Below, in pieces: positions 15,330-61,227 of a stretch of 64,000 bases of DNA (within the stretch, counting starts at the first letter, position 1; each line of letters opens with the position of its first letter). The notes below the pieces were generated by a model. It did not search any database. It was not told where the DNA came from and saw only the letters and a program-made list of their open reading frames with translations. Source of the DNA: Taiwanofungus camphoratus. Taxonomy: Eukaryota > Basidiomycota > Agaricomycetes > Polyporales > Taiwanofungaceae. Location of the stretch: the NCBI GenBank assembly GCA_003999685.1, contig CP021221.1:3038001-3102000 (forward strand), written 5' to 3'. A program made the translations under genes and the position numbers.

Positions 15330-16765
15330 TGATATGATGATGCGCACTATAACACTCCAACCCCAACTGGGTATGACCTAGAGAAGCTGGAAGGCTATAG
15401 AACTAGTTAGTGTGGAGGGAAGAGTCAGCAGCAAAGGGTTCCCGATCTCAAATGGGTCGAGAGACGTCTACGAAGGTCTTCAACGACCCTCTACGTGTGT
15501 CGCGACTGCTCGACGTAGCTTCGATGCGCTACTATGCTGTACTATACTAGGGAGAGACTTAAACGTGAGAACTTAGCTGATACGCAACCCTTCGAAATAC
15601 TGTAGAAGGCGGACTTGGGTTAGAGAGAGATGCTAGCGCAACCCTTCGATGTGGCTCGAAGGTGAACGTAAGACTGAACGCAACTTCTTCGACGGATGTC
15701 AAAGACGGACGAGACGCAACCCTTCAAGATACTGTAGAGGGCGGATAGTAGACGCAACTCTTCGAACGTAATCGAAGACGGAAGGACGCAGTAGAACACA
15801 GTAGGTGACTAAATCGAAGGTGCTCTTCTTGAGCTCTGCAGGATAGGGGAAAACTTCTCTGTTGTTCCGAGACACCATACCTCATGTTTATACTACTGTA
15901 CTATAATGTAAGGCGCATCGGGAGTGGCATAGTACGAGTGGCATCCTAACTACTTGCGTACTACGAACTATGGAGTGGCATGAAATATACTAAGACAAGA
16001 CCTGGGGCCGTAGCGTTATCGAGTACATCGAGTGGCGCATCGTAGCAGATCGAGCGATATCGGGGTGGCGAGACCGGTCACATGCGAGGACATTGAGTGG
16101 CAACTGCGTGTGGCGTATTGTGCGTAGAGGGACCAGTACACCGGAACATTGGACTGGAACTGGCGGAGTGGCAGTGGCGTGATTTGAGGCTATCGGAGAG
16201 TCCCGTGGTGGCTTTTTGGGCTGTATTGGACGCGTCGAGTGGCGTCGAAGCCATGACTAAGGTCCTAGGGTCGAGTGAGGGCGCTCCGTGGGGCCTAGAA
16301 GTGCCTGGCGCCTATCAACGACCTAGGGGACCCTGGTACCTAGGGAGTGCTCCGCAACGTGGCTGTGATAGGTAGTGTGGGAACTGTGGGGGTGTGAGGG
16401 TAGGAGCTACAACCTGTATGTCTTGTTTTTGTAAGTAGGGGAGTAAGGGGTCAAGGGTCCTGCACAACAGGATCTTGTTCCTAAGTGCTATACGATCCCT
16501 AAGGCCTTGCGAGGCCCTCCAAAGTGCGTGAAGTCCTTCGAGGTTTTGCGAAGTCCTTCGAAGTTTTAGCTAAATTGCACGCGCTGACTTCGTAGGCTGT
16601 GTGGAGTTAAGGAGCAATAAGCCAATAGACTATAGTTTCAACTAAGCAGCAGGGAGTATGAGACTGCTGCGAAGTCTTTTAGCTAGAGTTAGCTAAAGGG
16701 CGTGAGGCTTAGAGGCTTGTTAGAACGAGGTGGGCGAGGTTTGACTAGTGTAGGAGACCTGTAGG
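15330..16765 (+). mobile_element. LTR-2 solo, 5' part, with LTR-1 nested in it
   Basis: LTR-2 sequence occupies 15330-15337 and 16318-16765. The first eight bases are cut off by a nested LTR-1. It ends at GTAGG (16761-16765), where an LTR-3 element entered. The remaining 3' part of this same LTR-2 is at 18764-19972 in inverted orientation. The outer duplication is CCGG at 15326-15329 and 18760-18763. Confidence 0.85.
15338..16317 (+). mobile_element. Solo LTR, family LTR-1 (copy 2), nested in LTR-2
   Basis: 980 bp, beginning TGATGCGC and ending CCTATCA. It lies eight bases inside LTR-2, with the duplication ATGA (15334-15337) and ACGA (16318-16321). The uninterrupted LTR-2 copies read TGATACGACC, so the original site was ACGA and the left copy lost its CpG by transition. 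Compared with copy 1, this copy has many C-to-T and G-to-A changes at CpG. Confidence 0.88.
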
Positions 16766-17878
16766 TGATACAATTTCTTTTATCGCATAGCTTATCGGTC
16801 AGACCTCGGATAGGTCCTGTGACCTTTCGCTCCTAGGACGGGCCTCGGGTAGGCCCAGCTTCTTCGCGCAGCATTTTGACTCATCGCTGCTTACGGTACG
16901 GGCCTCAGATGGGCCCCGGTTACTCATGGACACTGACTCATATCGGGCCCCGCTTACACATTCCGTCTTACGCTTACTGATTGCTAATACTGATACAAGC
17001 TGGTATCAACGACCGGAAGCCTCGAACGTGAGGACCTGGCTACTAGAGATAGTAGTGAGGCTTTATGGACACTGCGTATGTCCTTTCTGGGCGAAGTCGA
17101 TAGAGTCGAGCGAGTACTCAGGTACGAAGCGAAAGGTCGCAAGATACGAGTATAAGATTGCTAGTGGTAACTAGCTACTTGGTAACCAGATCGAACTTAA
17201 GGTCCGACCTACAAAGTACAGGGCCTTATATATGTATTCTACTCTGCGCACGGACCATGGCACGTGGTCTAAGAATCAGCATGAGTAAGCGTATGTAAGG
17301 CGATATGAGTCATCAGGCCGTATTAGCAATCAGTAAGTGTACGACAGAATGTGTAAGTGGGGCCCGATATGAGTCAGTGTCCATGAGTAATCGGGGCCCG
17401 TCCGGGGCCCGTACCGTAAGCAGCGATGAGTCAAGATGCTGCGCGAAGAAGCTGGGCCTACCCGAGGCCCGTCCTAGAAGCGAAAGGTCATGGGACCAAT
17501 CTGAGGTCCGACCGATAAGATATGCGATAAAAGAAGTTGTATCAAATACGGCCCGATGACTCATATCGCCTTACTTACGCTTACTCATGCTGATTCCTAG
17601 ACCACATGCCATGGTCCGTGCGCAGGGTAGAATACGTATATAAGGCCATGTACTTTGTAGGTCGGACCTTAAGTTCGATCTGGTTACCAAGTAGCTAGTT
17701 ACCACTAGCAATCTTATACTCATATCTTGCGACCTCTCGCTTCGTACCTGAGTACTCGCTCAACTCTATCGACTTCACCCAGGAGGACATACGCAGTGTC
17801 CATAAAGCCTCGCTACTATCCCTCGTAGTCAGGTCCTCACGTGCGAGGCTTTCTGGTTGTTGATACCAGCTTGTATCA
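16766..17878 (-). mobile_element. LTR-3 (inverted), split by a solo LTR-3; left edge of an inversion
   Basis: The reverse complement of LTR-3 occupies 16766-16990 and 17550-17878, from TGATACAATTTC to GCTTGTATCA. Its left flank is GTAGG (16761-16765) and its right flank is GTTGA (17879-17883). These do not match each other, whereas each matches the flank of a different LTR-3 end further right (19968-19972 and 40099-40103, read on the other strand). This is the signature of recombination between two LTR-3 copies. Confidence 0.85.
16991..17544 (+). mobile_element. Solo LTR-3 nested inside LTR-3
   Basis: 554 bp, TGATACAAGC to GTTGTATCA, with the 5-bp duplication AATAC at 16986-16990 and 17545-17549. 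It is inserted in opposite orientation in another LTR-3. Same family as the LTRs of E1. Confidence 0.9.
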
Positions 17879-18763
17879 GTTGAGACCAATCTCGGTATAC
17901 ATGTGCGGCAATGGCTGTGCGCATATTATAATGCTTGTCTCGACTTTGAGGTTTATCCAAGCGTCTTCAAGCGGTCTGTTACGGTGGTATTGCCTAAACC
18001 AAACAAACTGGATTACACGCTAGCGAAGGCTTACAGGCCTATCTGCTTGCTTAACTGCTTTGGCAAATTGTTCGAAAAGATCATTGCCAAACGAATGCAG
18101 TGGGATGCCCAGAAGCAGGGAATCCTACACCCATATCAGTTTGGTGGGGCTATGCAGCATAGCACCACCGACGCAGGTATCCAGCTGGTGCACAATGTCA
18201 AAGAGGCATGGGCACGAGACCTTATCCCATCAGTGCTGTTGCTCGATGTGTCACAGTTTTACCCATCCATCAATCATGATGCGCTGGTAGGAATAATGAG
18301 AAAGCAGGGCTTCAATAGCAAGCTCTGTAATTTCATGGCAAATTACTTGATCAGGTGAAAAACCCGATTCTTGTTCAATGGTACCCTGACCGATCCATCT
18401 GACTTCGATGTCGGAGTCGGCCAGGGCTCGAGTCTATCCCCGATTTTATCTGGGGTTTACATTGCACCAGTTATACACAAGTGGGCGCCTGTCCATTTGG
18501 TACAACCGGGCCGTACCAGGACCCAGTTCTATGTGGACAATGGTCTCATCATGGCGGCTTCGCCGAAAGCTGTTGATGACAGCCCGCAAGCCCTTGTGCT
18601 GAAAAACAATGCCATCCTGTCGGATGTCTTTCATAATCTAGTCGGCGATCTGAACCATTTAGGTTTAGATGTCGAAGGAGATAAGTTGGAGTTGATGCAC
18701 TTCTGGAAGCGCCAGAAGGGTTATTCAACTTCCCGACCCCTTGGTCCGGATCTAACCATCCGG
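17879..18763 (+). pseudogene. LINE-2 piece 4: reverse transcriptase core, inverted
   Basis: RT domain on the plus strand although the rest of LINE-2 is on the minus strand. It contains AYRPICLLNCFGKLFEKI, LLLDVSQFYPSINHDAL, VGQGSSLSPILSG and FYVDNGLIMAASP. The catalytic motif is YVDN (intact copy: YVDD), and an in-frame TGA lies at 18356-18358 where the intact copy has an Ile-Gly-Arg-Lys stretch. The left edge is GTTGA and the right edge CCGG, both target duplications of later LTR insertions. Confidence 0.9.
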
Positions 18764-19972
18764 TGATGAGTCCTGTAGCCTCCTAGGCCCCAAATCGCGA
18801 TTTTAGGAGCTTTCTAATCACTCAACCGACCATTCTAAGACTCTTCTACAGTCTACAACAGGTGGGATAGGTTCCTATAATATTCCTAACACCTCCTTTC
18901 CTTCCTAAACCCTTCTAACACTCTATGAAGTCCTGCGAAGTCACATGAGGTGCTACAAGGTTTTAAATGCTAGCCACGAAGTCCCTAACTCCTGCTAATT
19001 CCACTATCGGACACTGCCGGCCCTCCCATACTGTTCTATTGGATCTAGGTCCTACCTACTACATCACTCATCCTGGGCTTAGCTAAGAAGTCTTAGCTAA
19101 GTCTCTCCTAGCTCTTGTGATTGCAGCTACCTCTGATAGGCTCCGAAACGGTCCGAAGTTCCAGAAGCTGGACTTAGGAAGCCTTGCACACCCCATGGGT
19201 CTCGATCCTATGCCATAAGGTCATCCTAGGGCGCATCCATATGATCCTCCACCCATTTAGGACACCTCCTACCTCGATTAGGCCAAGTCCCGCTGCTAAG
19301 AACTTCATACGCTCTTAGCCCACTAAGATAGTTGATCACGGTGCATGGCTGCTCTCGGATAGTCATCCTGCCCTCGTGAATGAACTTGGTCACCTTTCTA
19401 CCGTACGTAGTTCCCCTGTTTCAGTTCCTATTTAGTTCCTATCCTCCTCATGTTCACTTCGGAGCCCATGCACTTTAGTACACATTTCGGACTCGTAAGG
19501 ATCACTTCATGCGAGAATAGTTTACCTCACGCTCCCCTATTTAGGCAGAGGTAGTTTACTATGTACGACAGAGACCCCTCAGTGCACGCTTCTCTCTTTG
19601 GAATACAAGTTCCCCTGTAGCTCTGATCTCAGGAAAGCGCCGCAAGTACAACCTTAGGAACAGTCCTAAGGCCCCTAAGTCTCCACCCCAGCTCCATTTC
19701 AGTACCTTTGAACTACGTCTACGCTTGCGATATATCTACGAACCACGTCTACGCTTCCCGAACTACGCACTACGATCCATGAAGTCGCCGTGACTTCGCA
19801 CCCTTCAGCACCTCATATAGCATCTATCCAGTGGGCCTCCGCCTTAGTTATACCCTTAGGCTTACGTTACACCATCTCTACAACCTACAAATAGCCCTAC
19901 AACTCTCCCATAGCCTTCATTTCAGGCTATAGTACATCTCCCTACGCCCTCGAACTCTCTGACCTCTCCTAC
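18764..19972 (-). mobile_element. LTR-2 solo, 3' part, inverted
   Basis: Reverse complement of the LTR-2 3' portion, beginning TGATGAGTCC and ending CTCTCCTAC. It continues exactly from the point where the plus-oriented piece stops at 16765 (GTAGG shared). The inverted state follows from the LTR-3 recombination. Confidence 0.85.
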
Positions 19973-20515
19973 TGATACAAGCTGGTATCAACGACCGGAA
20001 AGCCTCGAACGTGAGGACCTGACTATGAGGGATAGTAGCGAGGCTTTATGGACACTGCGTATGTCCTCCTGGGCGAAGTCGATAGAGTCGAGCGAGTACT
20101 CAGGTACGAAGCGAGAGGTCGCAAGATACGAGTATAAGATTGCTAGTGGTAACTAGCTACTTGGTAACCAGATCGAACTTAAGGTCCGACCTACAAAGTA
20201 CACAGCCTTATATACGTATTCTACCCTGCGCACGGACCATGGCACGTGGTCTAGGAATCAGCATGAGTAAGCGTAAGTAAGGCGATATGAGTCATCGGGC
20301 CGTATTAGCAATCAGTAAGCATAAGACGGAATGTGTAAGTGGGGCCCGATATGAGTCAGTGTCCATGAGTAACCGGGGCCCGTACTGTAAGCAGCGATGA
20401 GTCAAAATGCTGTGCGAAGAAGCTGGGTCTACCCGAGGCCCGTCCTAGGAGCGAAAGGTCACAGGACCTATCCGAGGTCTGACCGATAAGCTATGCGATA
20501 AAAGAAATTGTATCA
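19973..20515 (-). repeat. LTR-3 at left end of E1
   Basis: 543 bp, TGATACAAGC to AATTGTATCA. It lacks about 11 bp present in the 554-bp copies. The left flank CCTAC is the target duplication of the insertion in LTR-2 (GTAGG on the other strand). Confidence 0.88.
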
Positions 20516-20790
20516 TTACCCCCCTACTTATGATTGAACGCCTGGTCAATCAATTAAACTCCACTGGGGACGTGTCGAGTTTCTTCAAATCGAACTTTGA
20601 CGAACAACTGATGAACTCGACGAACTTCCAAGGATGAACTTGAAGAAATTCCTGGAAGTGGACTTGCGGGCGTTCCTCCGCGACCGATAAGGGATGACCC
20701 TTGAACCCATAGGGGATGACCCCTCCAACCGTGAGGATCCTTTCACCTCAAACTATACAGTTTTACGACATGTCGGTCGTATGTTGTAGT

Positions 20791-21087
20791 TTAACGACGT
20801 GCACGGTCGTTCCCTCGCAGTTTAACGACATGCAGGAACCACTCTGGATGATACGGCGGTACCGGGTCGTTGGCGAATGCGTAATGGACGGCGGGGCATT
20901 TACGCGTAAGGTGCCCAGGCGATGGGCGACTACAGCGGAGGCATTTGTAGTCGGGGCATGTCCTGTGCGAGTGAAAAGTGCTACCACAGAGGTAGCATGG
21001 ACCGTAGCGAGTGAACGAGGATGAGGGACCATTTGACTGAGACATGCGAGCAATGAGTGGGGTGAAAATGCGACTTATTGCCCTCAT
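20791..21087 (-). other. E1 small zinc-knuckle ORF after integrase
   Basis: A short reading frame starts at the end of the integrase/chromodomain frame. It holds two knuckle-like motifs, CYLCGSTFHSHRTC (C-x2-C-x4-H-x4-C) and CLRCSRPSPGHLTRKC (C-x2-C-x6-H-x4-C). Such motifs bind nucleic acid in Gag proteins; here they lie downstream of pol, as an extra ORF or tail. Part of a retroelement fossil. Confidence 0.6.
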
Positions 21088-24000
21088 CGTAAATTCTTGC
21101 GCTGCTTATAAGCGTTGAGCAGCTCGTCCACAGTACCGGCTAAGTTCTCTTCCGGTTTCCATGAGTCATCAGCGGATGAGTAACCTTTCCACCTGACTCG
21201 GTACTCTCGGCGATTCCTTCGGCGATTCTCACGATGTCCAACCAGAGCTTCGACTTCGTAGTTATCTTCGCCACTGATAAGCTCCGGTGGTGGTTCCGTG
21301 TAGTTGGGACCATGCGTGTCTGTCTCAGTGTATGGCAAAAGGAGTGCGGTGTGGAAAACGGGGTGCACTCGCCATGTCATCGGGAGTTTCAGCTTGTAAG
21401 ACACCGGTCCTAGAACGTCCGTGATTTCGAAGAGTCCCTCGCGCTTGGGAGCCAACTTCCTCGTCAGGTATGGCAGCTTTAGATTCCGTGAGTCTAGCCA
21501 TACCTTTTGTCCTTTGCGGAAACCCATTCCTTTGGGTTTCATGCGTCTTGCTAACACCACCTGTGCTAGCTCCATTGCTGAGTGTGCGTCTTCCCAAATC
21601 TTCTGCAAGTTCCGCAGTCGATAAGCGGTGCCCGATGTGTCCGATCCGGGGTGTACAACGGGAATCCCTCGAGGTTCATAGCCCATCATGACCTTGAAGG
21701 GTGACGCCTTGATCGTAGAATGCTCACGCGAGTTGTGAGCGAACTGTGCTGAACCCAGCAGCGACGACCAATTGTCCGGGTTGTTGCTCGTGAAACATCG
21801 CAGGTAGATCTTCAATTCCTGGTTGACTTGTTCTGTCTCTCCGTCCGTTTGAGGGTGGAACGCTGTGCTCATAGCTGACTTGACTCCAGTCATACGGCAG
21901 AGCTTCTGGAATACCTTTGATGCAAATTGTGGTCCTCGATCGCTAATGATCTTGTCCAGAAGACCAAACCACTTGTATACCTCACGATATAATGCCTCGG
22001 CTGTTCCTGATGCGTCAATCGTTTTGTTGCATGAAATGAAAATTACCCCCTTCGTAAGGTTGTGGTCCACAACGACCAAAATTGAATCGTAGCCCTCTGA
22101 GGTCGGCAAATCCGTAATGAAATCGCAGCAGAATGTGCTGAACGGAGTGGCGTGCTGCGCGGATTTGATCAGGAGTAGGGCCGATCGGGTGGGGTGCGTG
22201 TTAACTTTCATTTGCTGGCAAGTGCCGCAACCTTTGACGTATCGTGTGATGAAATCAGCCATTCCAGGCCACCAGTAGTCTCGTCGAATAGATGAGAGAG
22301 TTTTCTGAATTCCAGGGTGGCCGGCGAAGGGGAGGTCGTGATAATTCGAGACCGTTTGTCGTCGTAGATCCTCATCCAGGGGAATATACACCCGATTATC
22401 GTAGAGGAGATCTCCGTCTTGAATTGTCCAGTGGTCATTTGAGCCATTTTGTGCATTGCGTATCCCTTCCATATACACTGAGTCATTTACGCATGCTTTC
22501 GCGATGGAAGCCCTGAGACTCGTGTCGATTGCTGCTGCCCATACCTTGTCTGGTAGGACGGTTACATCCTGGTTGTCTGATGAGCCGTCGTCGTGGTCAG
22601 GGTGTCGGGAGAGCGCATCGCTTTGCACCATTTGCGTGCCCGGTACATGAATTAACCTATAGTCGAATTCGGACAAGCGAAGAGCCCATCGTGCTTGTCT
22701 TCGATTGAGGTTTCGTGCCATTTTCCAGTACGTCAGATTCTTGTGATCACTATAAATCGTGACTGGATACGGGCTTCCGATGAGGAGGTGACTCCATTCG
22801 TTGAGTCCTCTCATGACGCCCATGAGTTCTCAGTCATAGATGTCGTAATTTTGTTCCGCTGGCGTCATGCTCTGGGAAATATAACCGCATGGATGCCAAT
22901 CGCCGTTGTTGTCCTTTTGCCTGAGGACAGCGCCTGTGGCGAACTTCGATGCATCCGTTTCTAGCGTGAACGGCTTCTCCGGGTCAGGCATCTGTAAAAC
23001 CGGTTGTTCCAGGAAGGCTTTCTTCAATGCCTCAAAAGCTTCTTGCTGTTCATCGTCCCAGTGCCATTTGACGTCCTTTCGTGTAAGCGAGACCAGAGGC
23101 TGGGCCAGATGCGAGAAGCTGTGTATGAACCGGCGGTAGAAGTTCCCAAATCCGATGAACGACCGAACCTCCCTGAGGTTCTTAGGTATCAGCCAGTCCT
23201 TGATGCCGGCTACCTTGACTGGGTCCATGGCGAGTTGTCCGGGTCTGATGATCATGCCTAAGAATTCGACCTCTTGCACGTTGAATTTGTATTTCTCCGG
23301 TTTGAGATACAGATCGGTATCTCTGAGTCATTCGATAACTTGCTGTGTTCGCTTCTTATGCTCCTCGGGGTCTGTCGAGTAGATAAGGATGTCATCCATA
23401 TAGATTGCCAACCATCCTTCCTTGAGCATGTCTGCGAAGACCATGTTCATCATCCGTTGGAATGTTGCCGGTGAGTTGCACATCCCGAAGAACATTACCA
23501 GGGGTTCGTAGAACGAGGGAGGTCCTTCCCCAGCTGCTGGAACACCAAAAGCCGCTTTCCATTCGTCACCTTCCTTGATGCGAAGGTTATTGTATCCCTG
23601 ATGAAGGTCCATCTTTGTGAAGATCGTGGCGTTATTGAGGCGTTCCAGAAGTTCCGTTACGAGGGGAAGAGGGTATCTGTCTTTGATCGTTCCCTCGTTG
23701 AGTTCCCTGTAGTCCTGGCATGGTCGATATCCGCCGTCCTTCTTATCTACGAAGAAGAATGGGCTTGCGAGTGGCGATTTGGACGGTCTGATGTACCCCT
23801 TCTCTATATTCTCTTCGAAGAACTTGTCCAGTTCCGCTCGTTGGTCCCGATTGAGAGAATACGTCGACTGTTTGAAGTCCTTAAAATCCGGCTTGAGATT
23901 TATTTCGTGGTTGAACTCTGAATGTCTGGGAAGTCTCGCTGCCTTGGCTTTGTCGAACACCGGAAGGAGATCATGGAGGTACTCGGGGACGAGTTCCGTG

Positions 24001-24143
24001 ACTGGCTTCTCCTCTTTCTTGGTGTGTTCCTTGATAGCGAGTTCCGTTGATGTGGTGAGTCGACCGATGTCATGTGTGACCTGCCAGATGAGACCGTTTT
24101 CGAGACGACGATAGGTTCCGTCGAGAGGGTATTTCGTTTCCAT
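21084..24143 (-). other. E1 pol region: RT, RNase H, integrase, chromodomain
   Basis: Minus-strand remnants in the standard Ty3/gypsy order. RT shows YRPCQDYRELN, MDLHQGYNNLRI and the YMDDILIYS active site. The RNase H-like part contains FTLETDASKFATG and GYISQSM. Integrase has the zinc-binding HPGIQKTLSSIRRDYWWPGM...CGTCQQMK, then CCDFITDLP, SDRGPQFAS and the FHPQTDGETEQVNQ region. The C-terminal chromodomain reads YRVRWKGYSSADDSWKPEENL and targets chromoviruses to heterochromatin. Broken in more than one place. Confidence 0.9.
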
Positions 24144-24164
24144 AAGCGGGGCGTCTCGATACGC

Positions 24165-25144
24165 TGATAGGCGCCAGGCCCTTCTAGGCCCCGCGGAGCG
24201 CCCTCACTCGACCCTAGGACCTTAGTCATGGCTTCGACGCCACTCGACATGTCCGATACAGCCCGAAAAGCCACCGCGGGACTCTCCGATAGCCTCGAAT
24301 CACGCCACCGCCACTCCGCCAGTTCCGGTCCGATGTTCCGGTGTACCGATCCCTCTACGCACAATACGCCACACGCAGTTGCCACTCAAGGTCCTCGCAC
24401 GTGACCGGTCTCACCACTCCGATATCGCTCGATTTGCTACGATGCGCCACTCGATGTACTCAATAATGCTACGGCCCCAGGTCTTGTCTTAGTATACTTC
24501 ATGCCACTCCATAATTCGTAGTACGCAAGAAGTTAGGATGCCACTCGTACTATGCCACTCCCGATGCGCCTTACATTATAGTACAGTAGTATAAATGCGA
24601 TGTATGGTGTCTCGGAACAACAGAGAAGTTTTCCCCTATCCTGCAGAGCTCAAGAAGAGCACCTTCGATTTAGTCACCTACTGCGTTCTACTGCGTCCTT
24701 CCATCTTCGATTACGTTCGAAGAGTTGCGTCTACTATCTGCCTTCTACAGTATCTTGAAGGCTTGCGTCTCGTCCGTCTTCGACATCAGTCGAAGAAGTT
24801 GCGTTCAGTCTTACGCCCGCCTTCGAGCCACATCGAAGGGTTGCGCTAGCATCTCTCTCTAACCCAAGTCCGCCTTCTACAGAAATTTGAAGGGCTGTAC
24901 ATCAGCTAAGTTCTCACGTTTAAGCCTCTCCCTAGTATAGTACAGCATAGTAGCGCATCGAAGCTACGTCAAGCAGTCGCGACACACATAGAGGGTCGTC
25001 GAAGACCTTCGTAGACGTCTCTCGACCCATTTGAGATCGGGAGCCCTTTGCTGCTGACTCTCCCCTCCACACTAACTAGTTCTATAGCATTCCAGCTTCT
25101 CTAGGTCGTACCCAGTAGGGGTTAGAGTGTTATAGTGCACAACA
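24165..25144 (-). mobile_element. Solo LTR, family LTR-1 (copy 3), inside E1
   Basis: 980 bp in reverse orientation (TGATAGGCGCC to GTGCACAACA), with the 4-bp duplication ACGC at 24161-24164 and 25145-25148. It separates the E1 protease region from the RT region. Confidence 0.9.
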
Positions 25145-26458
25145 ACGCCGGGTGTGAATTTTGTCCATGCGTTGTAATTCGGTCATCTCCTTTGATGAAC
25201 GCTATGACCAGTTCATCGTCGTCGATTGTTTCCATTGCCTGATCCAATGTGATACCGTTGACCGATTCTTCTACCGGGGGTGCGACTGGGATGTCGTGGT
25301 GTGCTGTCTGCCTAGACATTTCTGTCGTCGGTAAGACAGGAGACATGGTGTCGATCACCTCGAAGTCTCCTTCGTCCTCTACCTCCTCAATGGTGGGCTG
25401 CCATTGTTGCTTGAGGCGTTTGTTTCGTTCAGCGAGGAATGCCGCTACCTGTGGACAAGAGGGTGCTGACCAGTCTACCTCATAGTCTAGCATGGGATCC
25501 AGGGCTTCTTCCTGTTCTCGTTCAGCTAGCTTCTTCAGCTTCAGTCGCGCTACTCGTTGCGCGATGATCCCTTTCTTCCACTCTCAAGACTCCTGCAGGG
25601 TCATGCGGTGCTTCAGTTCCACATGACCTCCCTTCCAGTCGATACTGGGGTTCTCGAGTTTGAGCCATGTATGTCCGAAGATGACGTCTTCGTTCCCTAT
25701 ACTGGCCACGTATGCTTTGACAAACCAGGGCTCATTTCCGATTTTGTATGACAGTAAGGCTCGTCTGTTGATGAGCGCTTGCTTGTTGACAGTGCCGTCC
25801 ACGTTGAACACCGGTATTGGGCATGGTAGTGCCTCAGTCCGTAACTTGTGTTCCTTAACAAATCGTGGATGCACGAATATTCCCGATGCGCCGCTATCAA
25901 TGAAGGTGCGGGCTTCGACGGCTTTTCGTCCCACAGTAATCGGAATATGTAAGGCTCTGTCATTCCGGACTACAAGTACAACACGGGACAGTGAAATGGA
26001 TACGGGCAGTGGTTGCATCGGCTCACCCTGTCCCTTTAAAAATCCTCCGTTCCTAACTCCTCGAACACCGCCCTCTTTTCATCTGCCGAGAGCGTTTTGA
26101 TGTATGAGCGGAAATCCATGGGGGATCGTGCCTCGGGTTCCTTCGAGGTATTCCTTTGGCCTGTCTTGGCCGTCTTCTTCGGACACTTGCGCACCGCGTG
26201 TCCTCCCTTGTGGCAGTAGAAACATAGACGATTGTCCATGTGGTACTTCCTTTCCTTCTTGCTGAGGCTGCATCCGTCCTCCCACTTCTTGGTGAACGGC
26301 GTGGGACGCAGGGTAATGAGCGCGTCCACCTCCATGGGTTCACCGTAGTCAACGTCGGTGGTGGCCGAGAGGGTTTGGTCGATCCCTCTGTAGACGGCGT
26401 CGAGGTGAAGAACATCGGTGTACCACTTCTCCATGGAGTTGGGTCGTTCCGTATTGGT
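25145..26458 (-). other. E1 gag zinc knuckle and protease region
   Basis: Minus-strand remnant. The Gag end has the knuckle CFYCHKGGHAVRKC. A retropepsin-like domain follows with FIDSGASGIFVHPRFV, whose DSG triad is intact. A Pro/Glu-rich linker leads toward RT. The right edge is the E2 target duplication GCGG (26459-26462). Confidence 0.85.
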
Positions 26459-26462
26459 GCGG

Positions 26463-28070: not shown

Positions 28071-28107
28071 CCTCCTCCCTATTGAAATCCTGACTGTCCT
28101 CAGTCAG
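28071..28107 (-). promoter_or_regulatory. E2 polypurine tract plus hairpin
   Basis: On the minus strand, CAATAGGGAGGAGG abuts the 3' LTR, the place for plus-strand priming. Just upstream is a perfect 7-bp stem with a 4-base loop (28090-28107). The same module recurs at 31591-31627. Confidence 0.75.
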
Positions 28108-28237
28108 TGTGCGCGACCGTGGGAATTTGTAGCCTATCGCGTCCGATCTGCAAAGCGGGCGATATCCTGATAGAAGCTAATCGTGGGTGCCTCTTATCTT
28201 TTTCTCCTCCTTCCCTTTTGCCTTTCCCTTCCCCATC

Positions 28238-29615: not shown

Positions 29616-30151
29616 AAGGTGGGGGGGTTCGTAGTTCGTCATCTCGCCCGTTCCGTATCTGTCGCACCAACGTGCTGTATTCTCTCTCGTTGCGCGTCCC
29701 TTTGCTAGGGACCTTTTCCAATATGTGTACAGTAGTCTGAATAAAGCGGACGCAAACGTCGTCCTTGTGAAAAGGTTCCTAAGTGTGTGAAGTAACCAAA
29801 CAACACAGCGAAGAATTAGAAGACTTAGGGGGATAAAATGCGCTCATTTAGGCTCAGTAAATCATCATGGCCTTGAAGGGCTTAAGGCCCCTCGCGCAAT
29901 CTTCGCTCCGCTCGGCGTTTTTTTAGGAGCTTTTTAGAACGATATCGCGACTTCGTGAGTTGAATCACTATAGTAAAAAGTAGGAGATGTTGTAAGTAAA
30001 AATTCGTAGACATTCGGAACTTCGTAGCTGTCAAACTGAGTGGGGGCTTGTTGGGGAAAGTAAAACATGACCAAAAGGTAAGCGAAAAGTAAAATGGACG
30101 TAGCGTAATCTTAGCTAAAGTCGGGGTATCGTCGATTGCTCCTCTGATTCT
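29616..30151. other. E2 spacer between passenger gene and pol end
   Basis: Convergent 3' regions of the passenger gene and the E2 pol frame. Apart from the AATAAA-like signal, only TTCG-rich non-coding sequence is seen. Confidence 0.5.
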
Positions 30152-33100
30152 TTAGTGAGCTTCGGATGGACTAGAGCCGGACTTAGGAGAGTAGGGATAC
30201 GATCCTAGTTCTTCGTCATCGCCTTGGGTGGTAGTCAGCTCTAGTTCGCGAAGTCGCTCCGTCGACACGTCCAGGAGTTCGGTAGGAAGTTCGAGGGCTT
30301 TTCGCGCTAAGTAGGGGATGACTCGGAAGGCTGCCGTAGGCCTGTCGAGTACCGAACCATCCAATTCGCATAGGATATAAGCACCACCTTTGTTTCTAGA
30401 TACCACGAGTACCGGGCCGAGGTAGCGAGGTCGCATCTTTCGATTTAGGGACTTTTCTATCTGTGTGTTGCGAATTAGTACTAAATCGCCCTTTTTGAAG
30501 TTGAAATCGTGGATGGTGTGCTTATGCTTTTCTTCGAATCGGAGAGCAGCTTGTCTTCGCGCTTCGTAGACCTTCGAATGTAGTTCCGCTACCTGAGTCA
30601 CCCGCTTTTGCAATGCGATAGCTCGACGTGCGATAAGATCGGTCGTGGATAGCATGGAGGATGGAGGAGGAAGGATATAGGTGGCCTCTACGACATCCAA
30701 AGGGATAACAGGGTGGGTGCCAGTGACCGCGAAATAGGGCGAACATCCCATGCGCTTTCGAGTCGTGATCCTTTCGGACCAGAAGACTGAGTACGTTGCC
30801 TGAGACCATTTAGACTCTTCGCCATCCACGGCCTTGAATAGAGCCTGCCTAACATCGAAGTGAGGCCTCTCCACCAGTCCGTTGGCACGCGAATTGTATC
30901 CGCTAATTCGGATATGTCGTAGCTGGTACTTCTTCGCTATGTAGTTCGTAGCTTTTACGAAGGGAGCACCGTTGTCCGTGACTATCTCCGATAGCGCGCC
31001 CCACCTACAGACCAAGTCTTCGAAGAGCCATTCTGCCAAAGCTTTAGCCGTCTCCTTGCGAAGCATCCGAAATTCGGGGTACTGGGTTAGAGAACACCGG
31101 CCTTGCACCAAGTACCTAAATCCGTTAGAAGGGGGCATATGCATGGTATCTATGTGAACCTTTGCGAAGATCGGAGCGGGCGTAGCGACCGTAGGCGGGA
31201 TTAGGATCTGCCGCACTTGGCGAATCTGGCATAGGTGGCAGCTTCGAACATACCAGGCAATGTCGATATGATGGTAGGGCCACCAAAACCGTTCCGAAAT
31301 CAGCACCTTCGTAGCGTGTATTCCTCGGTGCGCGACTGCATCGTGACATTCTCGGAGGATTCGTAGACGATCTGCCTGCTTTACAACTAGTTTGTGAGCT
31401 CCTTGTGGATCTTTGCGCCATAGTATGTCCTCGTCGAGGAAGAATAGAAGGCAGTATTTTACGAAACCTTCGTATTCTGAATCCGATAGGTTGGCAGGTC
31501 TCGCGAGGCTTCGTAGGAATTTTGCTACTAAGTCAAGTCTTGCGTCAGCTTCCTTGGCCATTTCGGATCTTGGGACGCTATCGTAGCTCTCCTCCTCCCT
31601 ATTGAAACCTTGGCTGTCCTCAGCCAACTCGGAGGCGAAGGTTGGAGCTATCGGAGGTGTGGGGGTTGTGATAGGAATGTTAGAGGCGAATTCGTAAGGG
31701 AATAGGGTAGAAATCGATGGTATAGGATGGGAAGGGGGGGCTTGGATGTGATGTAGAAACGAGTGCATTTTGTCTATCCAGTCTTCGAAGTCTTCTTCGC
31801 TGCTCTCTTCTTGATCTCCTGGCTGGGGGGTTCGTCTTGATAGTCCATCTGGTCCATGCATCGTACCTGGTACATGTACTAGGGTGAAATGGAATGTTAG
31901 AATCGATACGATCCAGCGATTTATACTCGCGCTGGGTGCGATGTCCGGATTTTGCAACATCCCTTTGATATAGCGTGCGTCCACTTCCACTATAAGGTTC
32001 CTAACTCCGATTAGGTAGATTCGTAGTACGCGAAGTGCTCGAAACAATCCGTAGATCTCTAACTTCGGTTGCGAGAACCTCCGCTCGCGATCATTTAGGG
32101 TGATGGATCCGAAACGATTGTAGAATCGGACTTTAGGGTTGTCCTCATCGCATTGGCAAAGGTGATAGCCAACTGCAATATAGGAGGTGTCAACTGCTAA
32201 GATGACGGGCGCACCTGACAAATAGTTAATGGATCGGAGAGCTGGAGAGGACAGCAAAGCATCCTTAAGGTCCTCTTGCGCTGCGATTTGCGCTGGACCA
32301 AATTCGAAGGGTACCGCCTTTCGCGTTAGGCGTACTAAGGCATCTGCACGATGCGCGAAGTTTCGGATGAAGATACGGACCACTCCAATGGTTCCTAAAA
32401 AGGCTCGAACGTCAGATAGGGTCGCACAAGGTCCCCAGTTGCGTATGGCTGCAACACGAGACTCGTCCGGTAGGCGACCTTCTGGAGTACACCGATGCCC
32501 CACAACGGTGATTTCGCGGGCAATTAGAATGCTTTTAACTCCAGAAAAGGTACCTCCTGCGTAGCGCATGCGTGTGACTATCCTATTGAGGTTCGTAAAA
32601 TGTTCCCAAACAAACTTTCGAATGCCTTGGGTTCTCCGAAATAGGTACGAGATCGTACGAACTTTCAGGGCCTTTGACCGGAACATCGTCGATATAGGGA
32701 ACCGTTAGGTGAGGAATTTCGGGCTGTAGGATGTGCGTAACATCATCGTGGAAGATAGGGACCGAGTTGGTCCATCCCATAGGTAGAGTGACCAATCTCA
32801 TAGCTCCGAAAGGTGTTTGAAATGTCGTAAGATCGCGCGAAGTCTCCGCTATCAAGCGTTCATCATAGCCTACATATAGATCCAACATAGCACCACAAGG
32901 TCGTCCTCCGAACTGTTCTGCGAGGTGTTCGGGAGTCGGGGGAACGCCTGAGTGTTGAATCGTGACAGCGTTTAGGGGTTCCAGACTATGTACAAGGCGT
33001 AGGGACTTTCCGTCTTTCTTCACCACACAAAACCATCGTGAACGATAGGAAGAATTTGAAGGTTCGTAGACCCCAGCTGCGATCTTCTTTTTGATTATTG

Positions 33101-34007
33101 CGCACACTTCGTTGTAGATTCCGGGTGGGATAGGAATGTTCTTTTGTACCCATGGCGTGTGCGGTACTACCGGAAAGTCGATGGGAGGGAAGTACTCCGG
33201 CTTGAAGCACCCTCTTTCGGAATCATTCCAAGCGAACGCATCAGCATGCAGGGTCATAAAGTGATGTAGGAGGTCCCTCTCTGCTGGTTGTAGGAAGTCT
33301 CCACTGTGTAGCTTGTCCGTGAGATCGTGCCGTTCTTGCGTATATCGCGAAGTAGGTTCGAAAGGTGGTGGAGTCGGTGATAGGGTAGGCATTGTCGCTA
33401 ACGGGTCGCCTTTAATTTCGCGAATGATTCGGAATCGTTCGTCCAAAGCTCCCAGAATAGGGCGAGTCTTCAGCGCTACAGGCTTGTACTTCTTTTTCGA
33501 TGCTGCAAATGTAGGAATAGGGGAAGAATCTGACAACTTAGGAAGGGATACCATCGGATTAGGAGCAAGGGAGGGTCTTCGGGCTGACTTCGTGACCTTC
33601 GTAGCGTTCCTGGGACCTGGAATGGGGATAGAGGATATGTCTTTAGAGGCGGAAAGCGAAAGCATAGGGAGAGAATTCGGATTATCGTGTGAAAGGAAGG
33701 GAGCCTCGTGCGGTGTTGCTGCTGCTAGAAAGCCAGATAGCCACCTAGTATGATCAGCCGGACCTTCCGAGACTTTCGAAGTTTCGCTAAAATAGAGAGA
33801 CTGCAGATAGCTAGACACAGAGTTAGAGACTGATAGATAGAGCGCAGGAACAGAATTGTTATCTGCTGCATTTACAGCAGCGAAAGACACGATTTTAGGG
33901 GTATCGGATTCATACTCAATGACCAGGGCGACCTCTCCTTGATTTCTCAAATCCTCGAAGTCTAAAAACCCGATCGCAAATGATTCGAAGAGTTCGCGTG
34001 GGGGCAA
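30152..34007 (-). other. E2 pol region: RT, RNase H, integrase
   Basis: Minus-strand. RT has WFCVVKKDGKSLRLVHSLEPLN and a YIDD active-site motif (LTVPYIDDVPVKGP). RNase H-like text includes VILAVDTSYIAVGY. Integrase shows the zinc-binding HRGIHATKVLISERFWWP...CHLCQIRQV, the first catalytic Asp in VHIDTMHMP, and IVTDNGAPF further on; the tail has an SH3-like KGDLVLIRNTQI stretch. It overlaps the gag-protease frame slightly, as in families using ribosomal frameshifting. A linker between RNase H and integrase contains the internal polypurine/hairpin copy. Perhaps one break. Confidence 0.88.
31591..31627 (-). promoter_or_regulatory. Internal (central) polypurine tract plus hairpin in E2
   Basis: The first 17 bases (CCTCCTCCCTATTGAAA as read on plus) are identical to 28071-28087. 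They are followed by a 7-bp stem with TCCT loop at 31610-31627. The stem differs from the 3' copy by two compensatory base-pair changes. It lies in the linker between RNase H and integrase. Confidence 0.65.
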
Positions 34008-36895
34008 CTATGATGATGGGCTGGTAAGAACTTTTGACGTCCTCGAGGCATCGTAGGGATGGTCGCGACTTCGCTCGTGTTCGGGCATACGATCGTGATG
34101 GTCTGCTCCTCGTTTCCGAAGTTCTTAACCACACTCTCGGTTACCACATCGAAGGGACGGCCTAGAAGGATATCGTAGGAGGGATTGCGTATGACGTGCA
34201 TCTGTAGGTACAACACAATGTCGCCTACTTGGAACGAGACGTTTCGAACCAGTCCTAAAGAACGGTCAATACTGCCATTAGCAGACTGCATATTTAGCTG
34301 CACGGAAGGGTCGTAGATTAGCCCTAAGGCATGACAGACTTGCTCTGACATCGCAACCACTTGTGACCCAGGGTCCACGATGCATTCGATTCGCTCTTTG
34401 TTGTCGATTAGGGCTTCGATAGAACGGATAGAGTTCGAGTCGCGGGCTACTATGATTTCGGAGGGTTCTTCCTTTCCGGGTACGTGTCGTAAGTACGTTT
34501 CGTAGGGGTCTGGAATGATGGTCGAACCAGGGACAAGGGGTTCACCATGGCACGATAGTTCGGAGGTTGCTAGCGTCGTTTTAGAAGCGAGATCGTCTGA
34601 GAGTTCCGTAATTTGAGCCATATGAGTAGCCTTAGGATCCATAGGCACACGTTTAGGGGTGATAGCTTCGCGATATCGCGCACGAACATCCGGGGATATA
34701 GATAGTAGCTCCTCGGGCGTTAGTGTAACCACTGGTGTTCTCATAGATCGCGCGAATATTTCCTCTGTAAGTTTCTCCTGATGAACCAGTGTGATCGTCT
34801 TATAGGCTACGTCCTTGCCCTTGTCTGCTGTAGGCTTCGGAGCTGCTGCGAAATTTCGAAGATTCGGAGGTGCGTAAGTAGCATCTCGAGCGTTAGCGAA
34901 AGGATGTACTGGTGGAGTGGGCGGTGGAATGGCTGCCTGTGATGCTGGTTGGGCTGGTACGTTAGATGTAGACGCGGCATGCTCCGATGAGTTCATGGGT
35001 GGATCGGACGCATTCGCAGGCTTCGGAGGCGACGGCGCTGAATTAGAAGGATAATTGGATCGCCTTAGAATGGTAGGAGGGGTCTGGTTCTGCGTCTCTG
35101 CCACTGGGGCATCTTGGTTAGCAGGGGGATCCACTACCGGATGCCGATCGTGTCCTATCGGAGGTGCGTTGGCTATGGGTGGGTTTCTAGGATCAGACTG
35201 CGCGTTAGGAGCACCCTGCCTTCTGCGCTGGGGTACTTCCACACCATCGAAGACTTCGCGACGTCTCCGAAGTTGGTAAATCTCGTGTTCTAAAGCGGCT
35301 ATACGATCCTCGGCGGATAGTGAGAATGCGGGCACATTTAGGCGATTGTCGATTTCGAATAGGAGCTGGGGGGAGGAATTCGTGCCATTTCGTCGATGAT
35401 ATTCGTAAAGCCTATCGCGAATCGTACGTCCTGGGATCGTTCTGGGTACGAAATTTCCATTTGGCAGCACTATCTTTCCATCTGGGTTGCGCTTGCACTT
35501 GCCATCCTTGATGTCTTGCTCGATGTGCTTGCAACACCTAGTGCAGCAGTCCAAGTCCCCGCAATAGTGACAGTACTGGCCTTCTACATGAGTGTGCTCG
35601 CCGCGCGAGCTGTCCAATCGAGAGGGTCGCTGGTTCGCAAGAACAGGAGCTAGCGCACTGGTTACGGACTTCGTGAGGATCTCCGCGAACGTCTGTAGAT
35701 CCTCTATCTTTAGCGATGAGCCCCCCACGGGCACGGCAGTGGGCGAAGTAGTTACAGTCGTAGCAGAGGTAAGAGTCGTAGAAGTACCAAGGAGTACGAA
35801 CTTCGCCGCGCTATGTAGCTGGTCCAAGGTGTAGGGATCATCGGGTAAGTGATCAGGGAACTTTAGCTGTAACCTAGTAGACACGCGAGCCCATAGCGAA
35901 GGCTGGAAGGCCCTCGCGAAAGCACGGCTTTGCTCGATAGTAGACAACCTATTTTTCGAAATTAGATACTTCGTGATGGCATAAAACTCACGATAGAAGC
36001 TTCCTAAGTCTGCCGCATTGTTGATTCCAATTCTAGCACGTTCTCCTATCAACTGATCCAAGTCAGACATAGACCACATTCTATCGTCCTCTGTGCCTGG
36101 GTAGAGGCTTCTAATCTCCTTCTTGAAGTCTTCGTAGGTCTTCGTGACATCGGAACACTCAGGGAGGGACTCCCATAGGTCCGAAACATCGATAGGAGGG
36201 TAGCGAGTAGTCCAGTGTTTCTTCGTTGCCTCATCCGCTATCTGGCAACGGACAAAAAGTGACTCTAAGTCCTGGAAATACCTTCGGATGGTCCTAGGCT
36301 GGTCAGGATCGAAGGTAGGGGATGTACGATCTCCTCGAGGCGGCATGAGTGGAGGTGCGTTTATGGTTGACACAGAAATAGGATTTAGGGGATTAGCTAA
36401 AATGGGTGCGGTCAGAGATGGGTTCGAAGCTGAGTTGATGCTAGCCGAAGAAGATTGGGTCGTAGAAGCGTCGGAAAGTGTAATAGAAGGAATCGGAGGG
36501 GAACGCGAAGCTGATGGGAGCGTAGAGGATAACTGAGGAGATTCCGGTAAATGGACTAAGATAGGGTCAGACACTGAAGAAGGACCGCTTCCTTCGGAGG
36601 TGTTAGGAAGCTCAGGGGACGTGGACTGAGGTTCGAAGTCCTCAATTGGTGAGTCTTCGGACGTGGTAAGCGTGTCTAGAGACCCTTCGAAAAGAGCCTC
36701 GAAGTCGGGGGTCGATTCGGAAGATTCGAGTGTAGAAATGATATCGGAGGGGATAGTCGTAGGTGTTCGCGAAGAGGTGCTTCGTGGAAGGCCTGCTTGA
36801 GTATAGTAACGATAGCCGACCTGAAAGAACTCGGATAGTAACTGATCGCTGTTTCTCGGAGAGGACTGGTTAGACGTAGGATGATCTGAAGGCAA
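33962..36895 (-). other. E2 gag-protease region
   Basis: A 977-residue frame. It has a Ser/Pro-rich N-terminus, a retrotransposon capsid-like helical region (about residues 200-350, with RYFQDLESLFVRCQI), a Cys/His-rich segment HYCGDLDCCTRCCKHIEQDI, a long Pro/Ala-rich linker, and a retropepsin-like domain near the C-terminus (IECIVDPGSQVVAMSEQV, active-site DPG rather than the usual DTG/DSG, then ILLGRPFDVV). It is the structural polyprotein of a Ty3/gypsy element. Confidence 0.85.
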
Positions 36896-36913
36896 TGAAA
36901 TCTTGACTGCTCC

Positions 36914-36931
36914 CCCTCGCGGTGGGCTCCA
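36914..36931 (-). promoter_or_regulatory. E2 putative primer-binding site
   Basis: On the minus strand, four bases after the 5' LTR the sequence reads TGGAGCCCACCGCG. It starts with TGG, as expected for pairing with the CCA end of a tRNA. The tRNA was not identified. Confidence 0.6.
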
Positions 36932-36935
36932 GAAA

Positions 36936-38543
36936 TGATACGACCTAGGGGACCCTGGTACCTAGGGAGTGCTCCGTAACGTGGCTGGGGGTAGTGTGAT
37001 AACTGTGAAGGTGTGGGGGTAGGAGCTACAACCTGTATGATACCGGGAAACCTGTATGTCTTGTTTTTATAAGTGGGGGAGTAAGGGGCCAAGGGTCCTG
37101 CACAACAGGATCTTGTTCCTAAGTGCTATACTAACCCTGAGGCCTTGCGAGGCCCTCCGAAGTATGCGAAGTTCTTCGAGGTTTTGCGAAGTCCTTCGAA
37201 GTTTTAGCTAAATCGCGCGAGCTGACTTCGTAGATGTTGCGAAGTCCTTCTAGCTAGAGTTAGCTAAAGGGCGTAAGGCTTAGGGGTGTGTTAGAGCGAA
37301 GTGGGCGAGGTCTGGCTAGCGTAGGAGACCTGTAGGAGAGGTCGGGGAGTTTGAGGGCGTAGGGAGCTGTACTATAGCCTGTAACTAAGGCTATGGGCGA
37401 GTCGTAGGGCTATTGGTAGGACGTAGGGATAACGCAACGTGAGCCTAAGGGTATAACTAAGGCGGAGGCCCACCGGATAGGTGCTATATGAGGTGCCGAA
37501 GGGTGCGAAGTCACGGCGACTTTCGTAGATCGTAGTGCGTAGTTTGGGAAGCGTAGACGTGGTTCGTAGATATATCGCGAGCGTAGACGTAGTTCAAAGG
37601 TACTGAAATGAAGCTGGGGTGGAGACTTAGGGACCTTAGGACCGTTCCTAAGGTTGTCCTCGCGGCGCTTTTCCTGAGATCGGAGCTACAGGGGAACTGG
37701 TATTCCAAAGAGAGAAGCGTGCACTGAGGGGTCTCTCTTGTACATAGTAAACTACCTCTGACTAAATAGGGGAGCGTGAGGTGAACTAATCTTGCGCGAA
37801 GTGATCCTTACGAGTCCGAAATGTGTCCTAAAACGCATGGACTCCGAAGCGAACACGAGGGGGGTAGGAACTAATTAGGAACTGAAACAGGGGAACTACG
37901 AACGGTAGAAAGGTGACCAACTTCATTCACGAGGGCGGGATGACTATCCGAGAGCAGCCATGCGCCGTGATCACCTATCTTAGCGGGCTAAGAGCGCACG
38001 AAGTTCTTAGCAGCGGGACTTGGCCTAATCGGGGCAGGAGGTGTCCTAACTGGGTGGAGGGTCATATGGGTACGCCCTAGGATGACCTTATGGCATAGGA
38101 TCGAGACCCATGGGGGTGCACAAGGCTTCCTAAGTCCAATTTCCGGAACTTCGGACCGTTTCGGAGCCTATCGGAGGTAGCTGCAATCACAAGAGCTAGG
38201 AGAGACTTAGCTAAGACTTCTTAGCTAAGCCCGGGATGAGTGACGTAGTAGATAGGACCTAGATCCAATGGAACAGTATGGGAGGGCCGGCAGTGTCCGA
38301 TAGTGGACTTAGCAGGAGTTAGGGACTTCGCGTCTAGCATTCGAAATCTCGTAGCATCTCGTGTGACTTCGCAAGACTTCGTAGGGTGTTAGTAGGGTTT
38401 AGGAAGGAGAGGGGGCGTTAGGAATATTATCGGAACCTATCCCTCCTGTCGTAGGCTGTAGGAGAGTCTTAGAGTGGTCGGTTGGGGGATCAGAAAGCTC
38501 CTAAAATCGCGATTCGGGGCCCAGGAGGCTATGGGACTCATCA
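36936..38543 (-). repeat. E2 5' LTR (LTR-2)
   Basis: 1608 bp, same ends and length as 26463-28070. The right flank GCGG (38544-38547) is the target duplication. Confidence 0.93.
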
Positions 38544-38547
38544 GCGG

Positions 38548-39544
38548 CCCACGAGTGTGGTGTAGATCTGGCGGTCCAGACCTTTGATGAAGATCACCCT
38601 CAGCGTGGGGTAATCGTTCTTGGTGCGTTGGCCTTGGAGGCCCACGGAGGCGTCCTTTAACTTGGCCTTCTCTGCCAGGAGTCAGAACCTTTCCACGTAC
38701 ATCTTTGTACTGACCCTGGTCTTCTTGTTTAGTTGCTTGGCCGGCAACTCCATTAGCACCTGGTGAGCCCTCTGGACTCCTTCGTGCTCGGGGAACGCAA
38801 GTCGCAAGCTCGCCTTGAATACGTCCCAGCTAGCGTAGGGAGCATGCCCTCCCGCGGCCCGTTCGTAAAACGTATTGCGCCAGATACGTGTGTCCTGCCC
38901 TCCTTTCATAAGAGCAACTGTGTAAGCGATCTTTGCATCATCGCTTAACCCTTGGTTGTTGGTGGCAGTGAGGTAGTGCTCCACCCTCTGGAGGAAACAC
39001 TCCAGATCTTCTCCTTGCCCGGTGAATGGCTCCGGTGCAGGAATGTCGAGCTTAAGGGGTCGACTCCCTTGTTGCTGTTGCGCCGAAAGGTGCGCTATAA
39101 GCGCTTCAAGCTCCGCCCTGGTCATTGTTGCGATAGTAGCCATCGTGGTGGGGGTAGTAGGTGTTACGGGTGTGGAAGGAAGTGACGGGAATGTGGGAGT
39201 GGTCGGAGTGGCTATCAACGGTGTCGAAGGTATCGACGCGGGAAAGAAACCAGCTGGGTCTCTTCCGTCTGATGGAGGGTTACGTCTGAAGTAGGAGGCT
39301 AATTTCTCCTGTGCTCGTCGATTCGAAATTGTCCCTGCCCACGCTAGTGGAGAGTTCGGGTAGATCAGATCGAGGTTCTGGTCAACGAAAGTCCAACGAA
39401 GACGATCGTACAGAAGTGGCGCGTTGTTTACTTGAGTCGGCAATCCCCAAGCGGTGGGGTCGACTGTCTCGATGGTAGATGTGGTGTCTAACGGTTAGCC
39501 CTACTAGATAAGATTAGGGGCGACTTAGCGTAAGTTCGATCTTT
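38548..39544 (-). other. E1 gag N-terminal part and leader
   Basis: Minus-strand Gag remnant (about 39443-38682) with a Pro/Thr-rich stretch and a capsid-like region (LKLDIPAPEPFTGQGEDLE, then FLQRVEHYLTATNNQGLSDD). It is split from its zinc-knuckle end by E2. 39444-39544 is the leader next to LTR-3; I could not identify a convincing primer-binding site. Confidence 0.85.
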
Positions 39545-40098
39545 TGATACAAGCTGGTATCAATGACCGGAAAGCCTCAAACATGAGGACCTGACTACGA
39601 GGGATAGTAGCGAGGCTTTATGGACACTGCGTATGTCCTCCTGGGCGAAGTCGATAGAGTCGAGCGAGTACTCAGGTACGAAGCGAGAGGTCGCAAGATA
39701 CGAGTATAAGATTGCTAGTGGTAACTAGCTACTTGGTAACCAGATCGAACTTAAGGTCCGACCTACAAAGTACACAGCCTTATATACGTATTCTACCCTG
39801 CGCACGGACCATGGCACGTGGTCTAGGAATCAGCATGAGTAAGCGTAAGTAAGGCGATATGAGTCATCGGGCCGTATTAGCAATCAGTAAGCGTAAGACG
39901 GAATGTGTAAGTGGGGCCCGATATGAGTCAGTGTCCATGAGTAACCGGGGCCCGTCCGGGGCCTGTACCGTAAGCAGCGATGAGTCAAAATGCTGCGCGA
40001 AGAAGCTGGGCCTACCCGAGGCCCATCCTAGGAGCGAAAGGTCACAGGACCTATCCGAGGTCTGACCGATAAACTATGCGATAAAAGAAATTGTATCA
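39545..40098 (-). repeat. LTR-3 at right end of E1
   Basis: 554 bp, TGATACAAGC to AATTGTATCA. The right flank TCAAC (40099-40103) is the complement of GTTGA found at 17879-17883 next to the inverted RT piece. Confidence 0.9.
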
Positions 40099-41235
40099 TC
40101 AACACCCTCCTCAGAGCGCTCGATCCGATCCACCAACCACTTGATCCACATCCAGTTCACGTGATCAGGACCGGGTGCAGAGATATTGCTAGTGGATTTA
40201 AGATTCTCTCGAATCTCAAACTCACTAATGTCTGGTAAAGTCAATTCCTCCCTTTGAGGAATTTCGTCTACAAATGACATATCCACCAGCCTTGGGTTGG
40301 CAGGTGTGAACTGAGCTTGAAAGGCACAACTGAGATCAGCCGTGCTTTGGACTGGCGCACCATCAGCTTGGCGCAGCTGAATGGTGGCCTCTTGCCGTCT
40401 CGGCTTTGTCCAAGCGACAAAGTCCGAGATCAGTTGGGGATTGGATTCATCCATGATCCGATCAAAGTGTGTGCGCTTCGCCCGCTTTGTGGCAAGGCAA
40501 AGTGTTGCACGTTGTTTATGCCGTTCAGACTGAAGTTCGGCAGCAACATCATATGCGTCTGCAGTGGCCTGAGCTTCAGGTCCCATCTGATGACGTATGT
40601 GGTGATACTGCCCAGCTGCCGCACTAAGACGGTGCTGGGTGTTCGCAAGCTGAGTAGCCGCACAGGAGCATGCAGCATCCCACCATGACTTCGAGCATTT
40701 GGATGGGCACTTCACTGACGAATACTCCATTCATAATCTTTGGAGGTCTCGCTCAAGGCGGTCCCTCATCCGTTCAATGCCTTAGGTGCTGCTGAAATGT
40801 GTAGGGTAATCAGCAAATAGTTTCGCCGTTGCCATTACAAATTGTTGGGCCGCGTCACCGGTGCGAGGTATACCCCGCACCGGTTCTGGCTCAACCTCAA
40901 TTGGCATCTCCCATTGCAGGACCGCATGGTCGCTGTTATGGCGATGTGACATGAGTACATGAAGGTCTTGGCCTTCATAGTATACTGGGTCAATCCACAC
41001 CAAGTCAATGACTCCAGGCATAAGAGCGATATTGTGGGACCGCCAAGTGACTGGACCGTCCTGAGCATTCAGCAAGACCAGATCAAGTTCAGCCTGGGCT
41101 AACTCGATAAGGCGATTAGAATCAGCATAGTGTGGGGGCCACACCCGAGATCCTGCAGCACGTGCATCCCACAATGGGTGGCAGAGATTGAAATCCCCAC
41201 ACATGCACGCAATGGGTGGAAGCACATGGATACGT
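40099..41235 (-). pseudogene. LINE-2 piece 3: endonuclease end to RT start
   Basis: Contains CMCGDFNLCHPLWDARAAGS, VIDLVWIDPVYYEGQDLHVL and SHRHNSDHAVLQWEM of the APE-type endonuclease, then the linker up to SAPGPDHVNWMWIKWLVDRI. Compared with the intact LINE it has in-frame stops near 40782 and 40733. The left edge is the E1 target duplication and the right edge the LTR-1 target duplication ACGT. Confidence 0.88.
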
Positions 41236-55876: not shown

Positions 55877-55909
<33 letters not shown>

Positions 55910-61210: not shown

Positions 61211-61227
61211 GCGCTCGGAATTCAATC

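Follow-up and report, generated by a model that had tools for sequence, protein, structure and literature searches.

A probable inversion by ectopic recombination between oppositely oriented LTR-3 copies in a retroelement nest of Taiwanofungus camphoratus

In the 64-kb stretch of T. camphoratus DNA analysed here (the window), a segment of 2,094 bp (17879-19972) lies inverted, bordered on the left by a solo LTR-3 in reverse orientation (O) and on the right by a full-length element of the LTR-3 family (E1). The segment was very probably flipped by ectopic homologous recombination between inverted LTR-3 copies. This origin is favoured because the target-site duplications (TSDs) of the two insertions are exchanged, the copies are in opposite orientation, no base has been lost or gained at either site and collinearity is restored when the flip is undone.

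Anatomy of the nest

The window was compared with itself (self-BLAST) and the junctions were read, revealing densely nested retroelements. One damaged LINE copy in six pieces forms the backbone, extending from 12109 to 42589, with 82-90% identity in the self-comparison to an intact LINE, the open frame of which (56207-61339) marks the copy used as the collinearity reference. The main features are as follows.

12109-15329, plus strand: left pieces of the damaged LINE copy, equivalent to 55886-58148 of the intact copy and split by a solo LTR-1
16318-16765, plus strand: 5' part of the disrupted LTR-2, the first bases of which precede a solo LTR-1 at 15338-16317
16761-16765, plus strand: GTAGG, left flank of O and final 5 bp of the LTR-2 5' part
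16766-17878, minus strand: solo LTR-3 O, reverse relative to the LTRs of E1
16991-17544, plus strand: inner solo LTR-3 nested in O, TSD AATAC/AATAC
17879-17883, plus strand: GTTGA, right flank of O, reverse complement of TCAAC
17879-18763, minus strand: LINE piece (RT region), inverted with respect to the remaining pieces of the same copy
18764-19972, minus strand: inverted 3' part of the disrupted LTR-2 (1,209 bp)
19968-19972, plus strand: CCTAC, left flank of E1, reverse complement of GTAGG
19973-40098, minus strand (coding): E1, full-length LTR-3 element of Gypsy/chromovirus type
19973-20515, plus strand: left LTR of E1 (L), the 3' LTR in the coding sense, with an 11-bp deletion
21084-22829, minus strand: RNase H, integrase and chromodomain of E1
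23328-24203, minus strand: RT of E1
24165-25144, minus strand: solo LTR-1 nested in E1, TSD ACGC/ACGC
26463-38543, minus strand: E2, full LTR-2 element nested in E1, TSD GCGG/GCGG
39545-40098, plus strand: right LTR of E1 (R), the 5' LTR in the coding sense
40099-40103, plus strand: TCAAC, right flank of E1 and opening 5 bp of the LINE piece in plus orientation
40099-42589, plus strand: right pieces of the damaged LINE copy, reaching position 60532 of the intact copy and split by a solo LTR-1
56207-61339, minus strand: open frame of the intact LINE (1710 amino acids) with endonuclease, RT and RNase H matches

In the self-BLAST, 17882-18763 matched 59026-58145 of the intact LINE in the minus orientation and was collinear to 59029. 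The plus-orientation LINE pieces bracket this gap, one ending at reference position 58148 (15329) and the next starting at 59031 (40105). Similarly, 18762-19972 matched 28072-26859 of LTR-2 in the minus orientation, while the 5' part (16318-16765) is in the plus orientation. The original prediction of a flipped LINE RT piece and a flipped half of an LTR-2 was therefore confirmed for both pieces but not for the fraction: the LTR-2 part covers positions 397-1608 of the 1,608-bp LTR, about three quarters. The disrupted LTR-2 is a solo LTR inserted in the damaged LINE, with CCGG flanking it on either side (read by eye).

The left LTR-3 consists of two nested LTRs, the reverse O being interrupted by the forward inner LTR-3, so that O predates the entry of the inner copy. 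O is 554 bp long once the inner LTR-3 and a single TSD copy are subtracted. The inner copy is oriented oppositely to its host. It was ruled out as a partner in the flip, being in direct orientation to the LTRs of E1 and having an intact TSD of its own. Among the four LTR-3 sequences it is the most divergent (31-36 substitutions) despite being nested, and on this ground it probably belongs to another subgroup, giving at least two LTR-3 subgroups.

The LTRs of E1 are forward and its coding strand is minus. Pfam matches above the cut-off were obtained for RVT_1, RT_RNaseH, Integrase_H2C2 and Chromo, and the match to the integrase core (rve) fell slightly under it (32.4 versus 32.6 bits). An RT, an RNase H, an integrase zinc-binding domain and a chromodomain are thus found between direct LTRs, as in Gypsy elements with a chromodomain. 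By coordinate arithmetic, E1 measures about 7.1 kb after subtraction of the nested LTR-1 and E2 with their TSD copies. E2 itself is young, its LTRs being 99.88% identical. A G-rich polypurine-like tract adjoins L. The expected primer binding site of E1 (39515-39544, adjoining the 5' LTR) reads AAAGATCGAACTTACGC in the coding sense and does not start with TGG, with which primer binding sites usually begin. A scan of viral contigs using the integrase region of E1 as the query gave two stretches that matched a pattern and no relatives.

Exchanged target-site duplications and restored empty sites

As present, the flanks read GTAGG/O/GTTGA and CCTAC/E1/TCAAC, with two mismatches in five positions in each pair; a TSD search that tolerated one mismatch returned none for either O or E1. 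These swapped flanks had been predicted and were found exactly where they were expected. A single exchange gives GTAGG/GTAGG and TCAAC/TCAAC, two perfect 5-bp target duplications. A failure of the pentamers to pair after the flip had been named beforehand as grounds for rejecting it; both pairs match at all positions (5 + 5). As a random control, sets of four junctions were drawn within the window, and none of 2,000,000 matched 5 + 5 after exchange.

For the empty-site test, the flanks were joined with one TSD copy and aligned to intact paralogues. The restored LINE site aligned to the intact LINE without gaps (40 of 49 positions identical), as did the restored LTR-2 site to both LTRs of E2 (38 of 44 each), whereas the un-flipped joins scored at most 27/48 around O and 26/45 around E1. 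Together with the exchanged pentamers, these gapless alignments bear out the prediction that undoing the flip would give two 5-bp duplications together with a continuous LINE and LTR-2, and they leave no base lost or gained at either empty site beyond the TSD. The intact LINE has TCGAT where the damaged copy has TCAAC, the copies being 88-89% identical around the site, so the evidence for the TSD at the LINE site is that its two flanks agree, and not that they match the intact LINE.

In a nest as dense as this one unrelated pieces could come to adjoin, and separate LINE and LTR-2 fragments might have been inserted in the minus orientation with no inversion at all. The probability of this is negligible. 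Both pentamer pairs would have to match by chance, which none of the random sets did, and the inverted piece fits the LINE gap (58145-59029) exactly with matching divergence: 94 of its 882 aligned positions differ from the intact LINE, which is not significantly different from the other five pieces pooled (Fisher p = 0.30), and divergence across all six pieces gave a chi-square p of 0.13. Independent insertion was rejected as contradicted by junctions, gap fit and divergence.

Ten LTR insertions (four LTR-1, three LTR-2 and three LTR-3) served as an internal control. Identical TSD flanks were found in six: the LTR-1 copies at 12461, 24165 and 41236, E2, the inner LTR-3 and the disrupted LTR-2, the right flank of which lies inside the inverted segment (CCGG is palindromic and hence no test of orientation). 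Two more, the LTR-1 at 15338 and the LTR-2 solo at 42669, have TSDs with one mismatch in 4 bp; for these the script offered alternative starts (15341 and 42662, respectively) and the family-homologous start was chosen. The two insertions lacking a TSD of their own are O and E1, and their flanks fit each other once exchanged. Since six of the eight other insertions have identical TSDs and two have a single mismatch, O and E1 are exceptional.

A separate observation concerns the seven LTR-1 and LTR-2 insertions, which have 4-bp TSDs centred on CG (coordinates include the flanks).

12457-13444: GCGG
15334-16321: ATGA/ACGA
24161-25148: ACGC
41232-42218: ACGT
26459-38547: GCGG
42665-44438: GCGG/TCGG
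15326-15329 with 18760-18763: CCGG

The form NCGN occurs in 13 of the 14 flank copies, against a CpG frequency of 0.068 in the window, a pattern noticed post hoc and with two boundaries picked from two offered. Three of the seven sites lie in the LINE, and the intact LINE likewise has NCGN at each of them. The sequences suggest that integration of LTR-1 and LTR-2 may be targeted to CpG. A preference for CpG-centred 4-bp TSDs is not named in the titles and opening lines of abstracts covered by a thin search, nor in the accessible portion of PMC3411680.

Origin of the inversion

Two LTR-3 retrotransposons would have inserted independently, in opposite orientation and about 2 kb apart, one into an LTR-2 (TSD GTAGG) and the other into the LINE in which this LTR-2 lay (TSD TCAAC). 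The inverted copies would then have crossed over on the same chromatid, either through repair of a break by homologous recombination or through template switching at these repeats, inverting the intervening DNA and swapping one TSD copy of each insertion. The anatomy, the exchanged TSDs and the collinearity are direct observations; that homologous recombination was the cause, in what order the events took place and which LTR was the partner are inferred. The solo O may have recombined with the left LTR of E1, giving a 2.1-kb flip. Alternatively, E1 may first have occupied LTR-2 and the solo LTR the LINE, in which case an exchange via the outer (right) LTR of E1 would have flipped the segment together with E1, about 22 kb in today's coordinates and a shorter stretch if E1 acquired E2 and LTR-1 only afterwards. 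Reasoning from the map, both routes yield the identical present sequence; the TSDs show one LTR-3 insertion per target, not which of them was full-length. The flip of 17879-19972 alone, as first proposed, is accordingly one of two equivalent routes, the flip through the right LTR of E1 being the other. No feature was found that places the flip before or after the arrival of the inner LTR, of E2 or of the LTR-1 copies.

A flipped unit bounded exactly by inverted repeats is also a classic weak point of assembly, and the real chromosome might be unflipped, the assembler having reversed the 2.1-kb unit flanked by inverted LTRs of 92-97% similarity. We regard this as unlikely. The window has no N; the assembly traverses both 1,608-bp LTRs of E2 contiguously in spite of their 99.88% identity, which suggests that long reads were used; and O is marked by its nested inner LTR and hence is not interchangeable with L.

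The LTR-3 copies were then compared. The two pieces of O (225 and 334 bp) are 92.4-97.0% alike to L and R, gap included (self-BLAST), and O, L and R mutually differ by 11-19 substitutions over 543-554 bp; identical runs of 87 bp (O/L) and 94 bp (O/R) are present. This likeness is in keeping with recombination between them. Relative to their majority state O has 13 changes, L five and R six. Nearly all are private, so the crossover cannot be placed. Chimeric LTRs were sought by comparing all four LTR-3 sequences with the inner copy as the outgroup, and none was found; the comparison gave one informative column (233, where L equals R, unlike O and the inner copy), which by itself does not place a crossover. 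Of the claim of a base-level record of ectopic LTR recombination, the recombination is supported, and a base-level record of the crossover is not. CpG positions account for 17 of the 24 changes in O, L and R (eight, four and five, respectively), a bias as would be expected of methylated, silenced elements.

Between L and R there are no differences across 295 alignment columns (55-349), i.e. an identical run of 294 bp, and 11 substitutions and the 11-bp gap lie outside it. This clustering gave a permutation p of 0.002, uncorrected for three pairs (O/R, p = 0.49; O/L, p = 0.84). The difference-free tract and the clustering of differences outside it suggest that gene conversion probably took place between the two LTRs of E1, separately from the inversion record.

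The TSD pattern seen here also results from adjacent inversion by replicative transposons. One LTR-3 element in LTR-2 might correspondingly have attacked the LINE 2 kb away through its integrase, leaving two opposite copies with exchanged footprints, either by hybrid-end insertion, in which sister or homologous copies share one TSD, or by strand transfer resembling adjacent inversion. The differences among O, L and R, almost all private and in similar numbers outside the L/R tract (O seven, L five, R six), agree with such a common source, while the CA/TG double change at columns 232-233, which separates O from L and R, is a weak hint of different sources. To our knowledge, no LTR-retrotransposon integrase acts on the ends of an integrated copy, which counts against this route, and we consider it very improbable. 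Hybrid element insertion is expected to end in nearly the same arrangement, its two copies deriving from one source, and chimeric copies are the criterion that separates it from ectopic recombination (PMC2775673, available text).

Relation to known inversions and significance

Homologous recombination between inverted LTR-3 copies would place this locus beside inversion 2z3 of Drosophila buzzatii, for which the criteria in the available text of PMC2775673 include opposite orientation of the Galileo copies, an exchange of TSDs and empty sites free of loss. At both loci the breakpoints carry two oppositely oriented copies with exchanged TSDs, each empty site has one target copy, and nested insertions show normal TSDs (PMC2775673). 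Galileo is a DNA transposon, the non-inverted chromosome was sequenced and chimeric copies were shown (PMC2775673), whereas here the copies are of an LTR retrotransposon, the empty sites are derived from paralogues and one column is informative on chimerism.

In HERV-K, as described in the accessible part of PMC4425911, the two TSDs of an LTR element disagree through recombination between copies, as they do here; unlike in HERV-K, a single window contains the two partners with all four of their flanks, so that the event can be reversed on paper, and what resulted is an inversion. Recombination between LTRs of different elements in nests is discussed in PMC2672092, in the part available. In Candida albicans, inversions arise by nonallelic homologous recombination (NAHR) between inverted repeats, for example a CEN4 inversion of about 3.1 kb (PMC6591007, available text). 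There too intrachromosomal inverted repeats flank the flipped unit, but the repeats mostly contain ORFs, and two inversions were checked by PCR, one of them also by Sanger sequencing (PMC6591007).

The signature is a textbook one, and the event is of a well known kind that is unusually clearly readable here; understanding of the process is unchanged by it. The footprints of a repeat-mediated inversion, namely both TSDs, both empty-site paralogues and nested insertions, are contained in one window, which makes the case useful for teaching and for benchmarking the reconstruction of transposable-element nests. It also carries two warnings: E1 and the solo O should not be annotated as insertions without TSDs, and it is risky to date elements whose LTRs may have exchanged.
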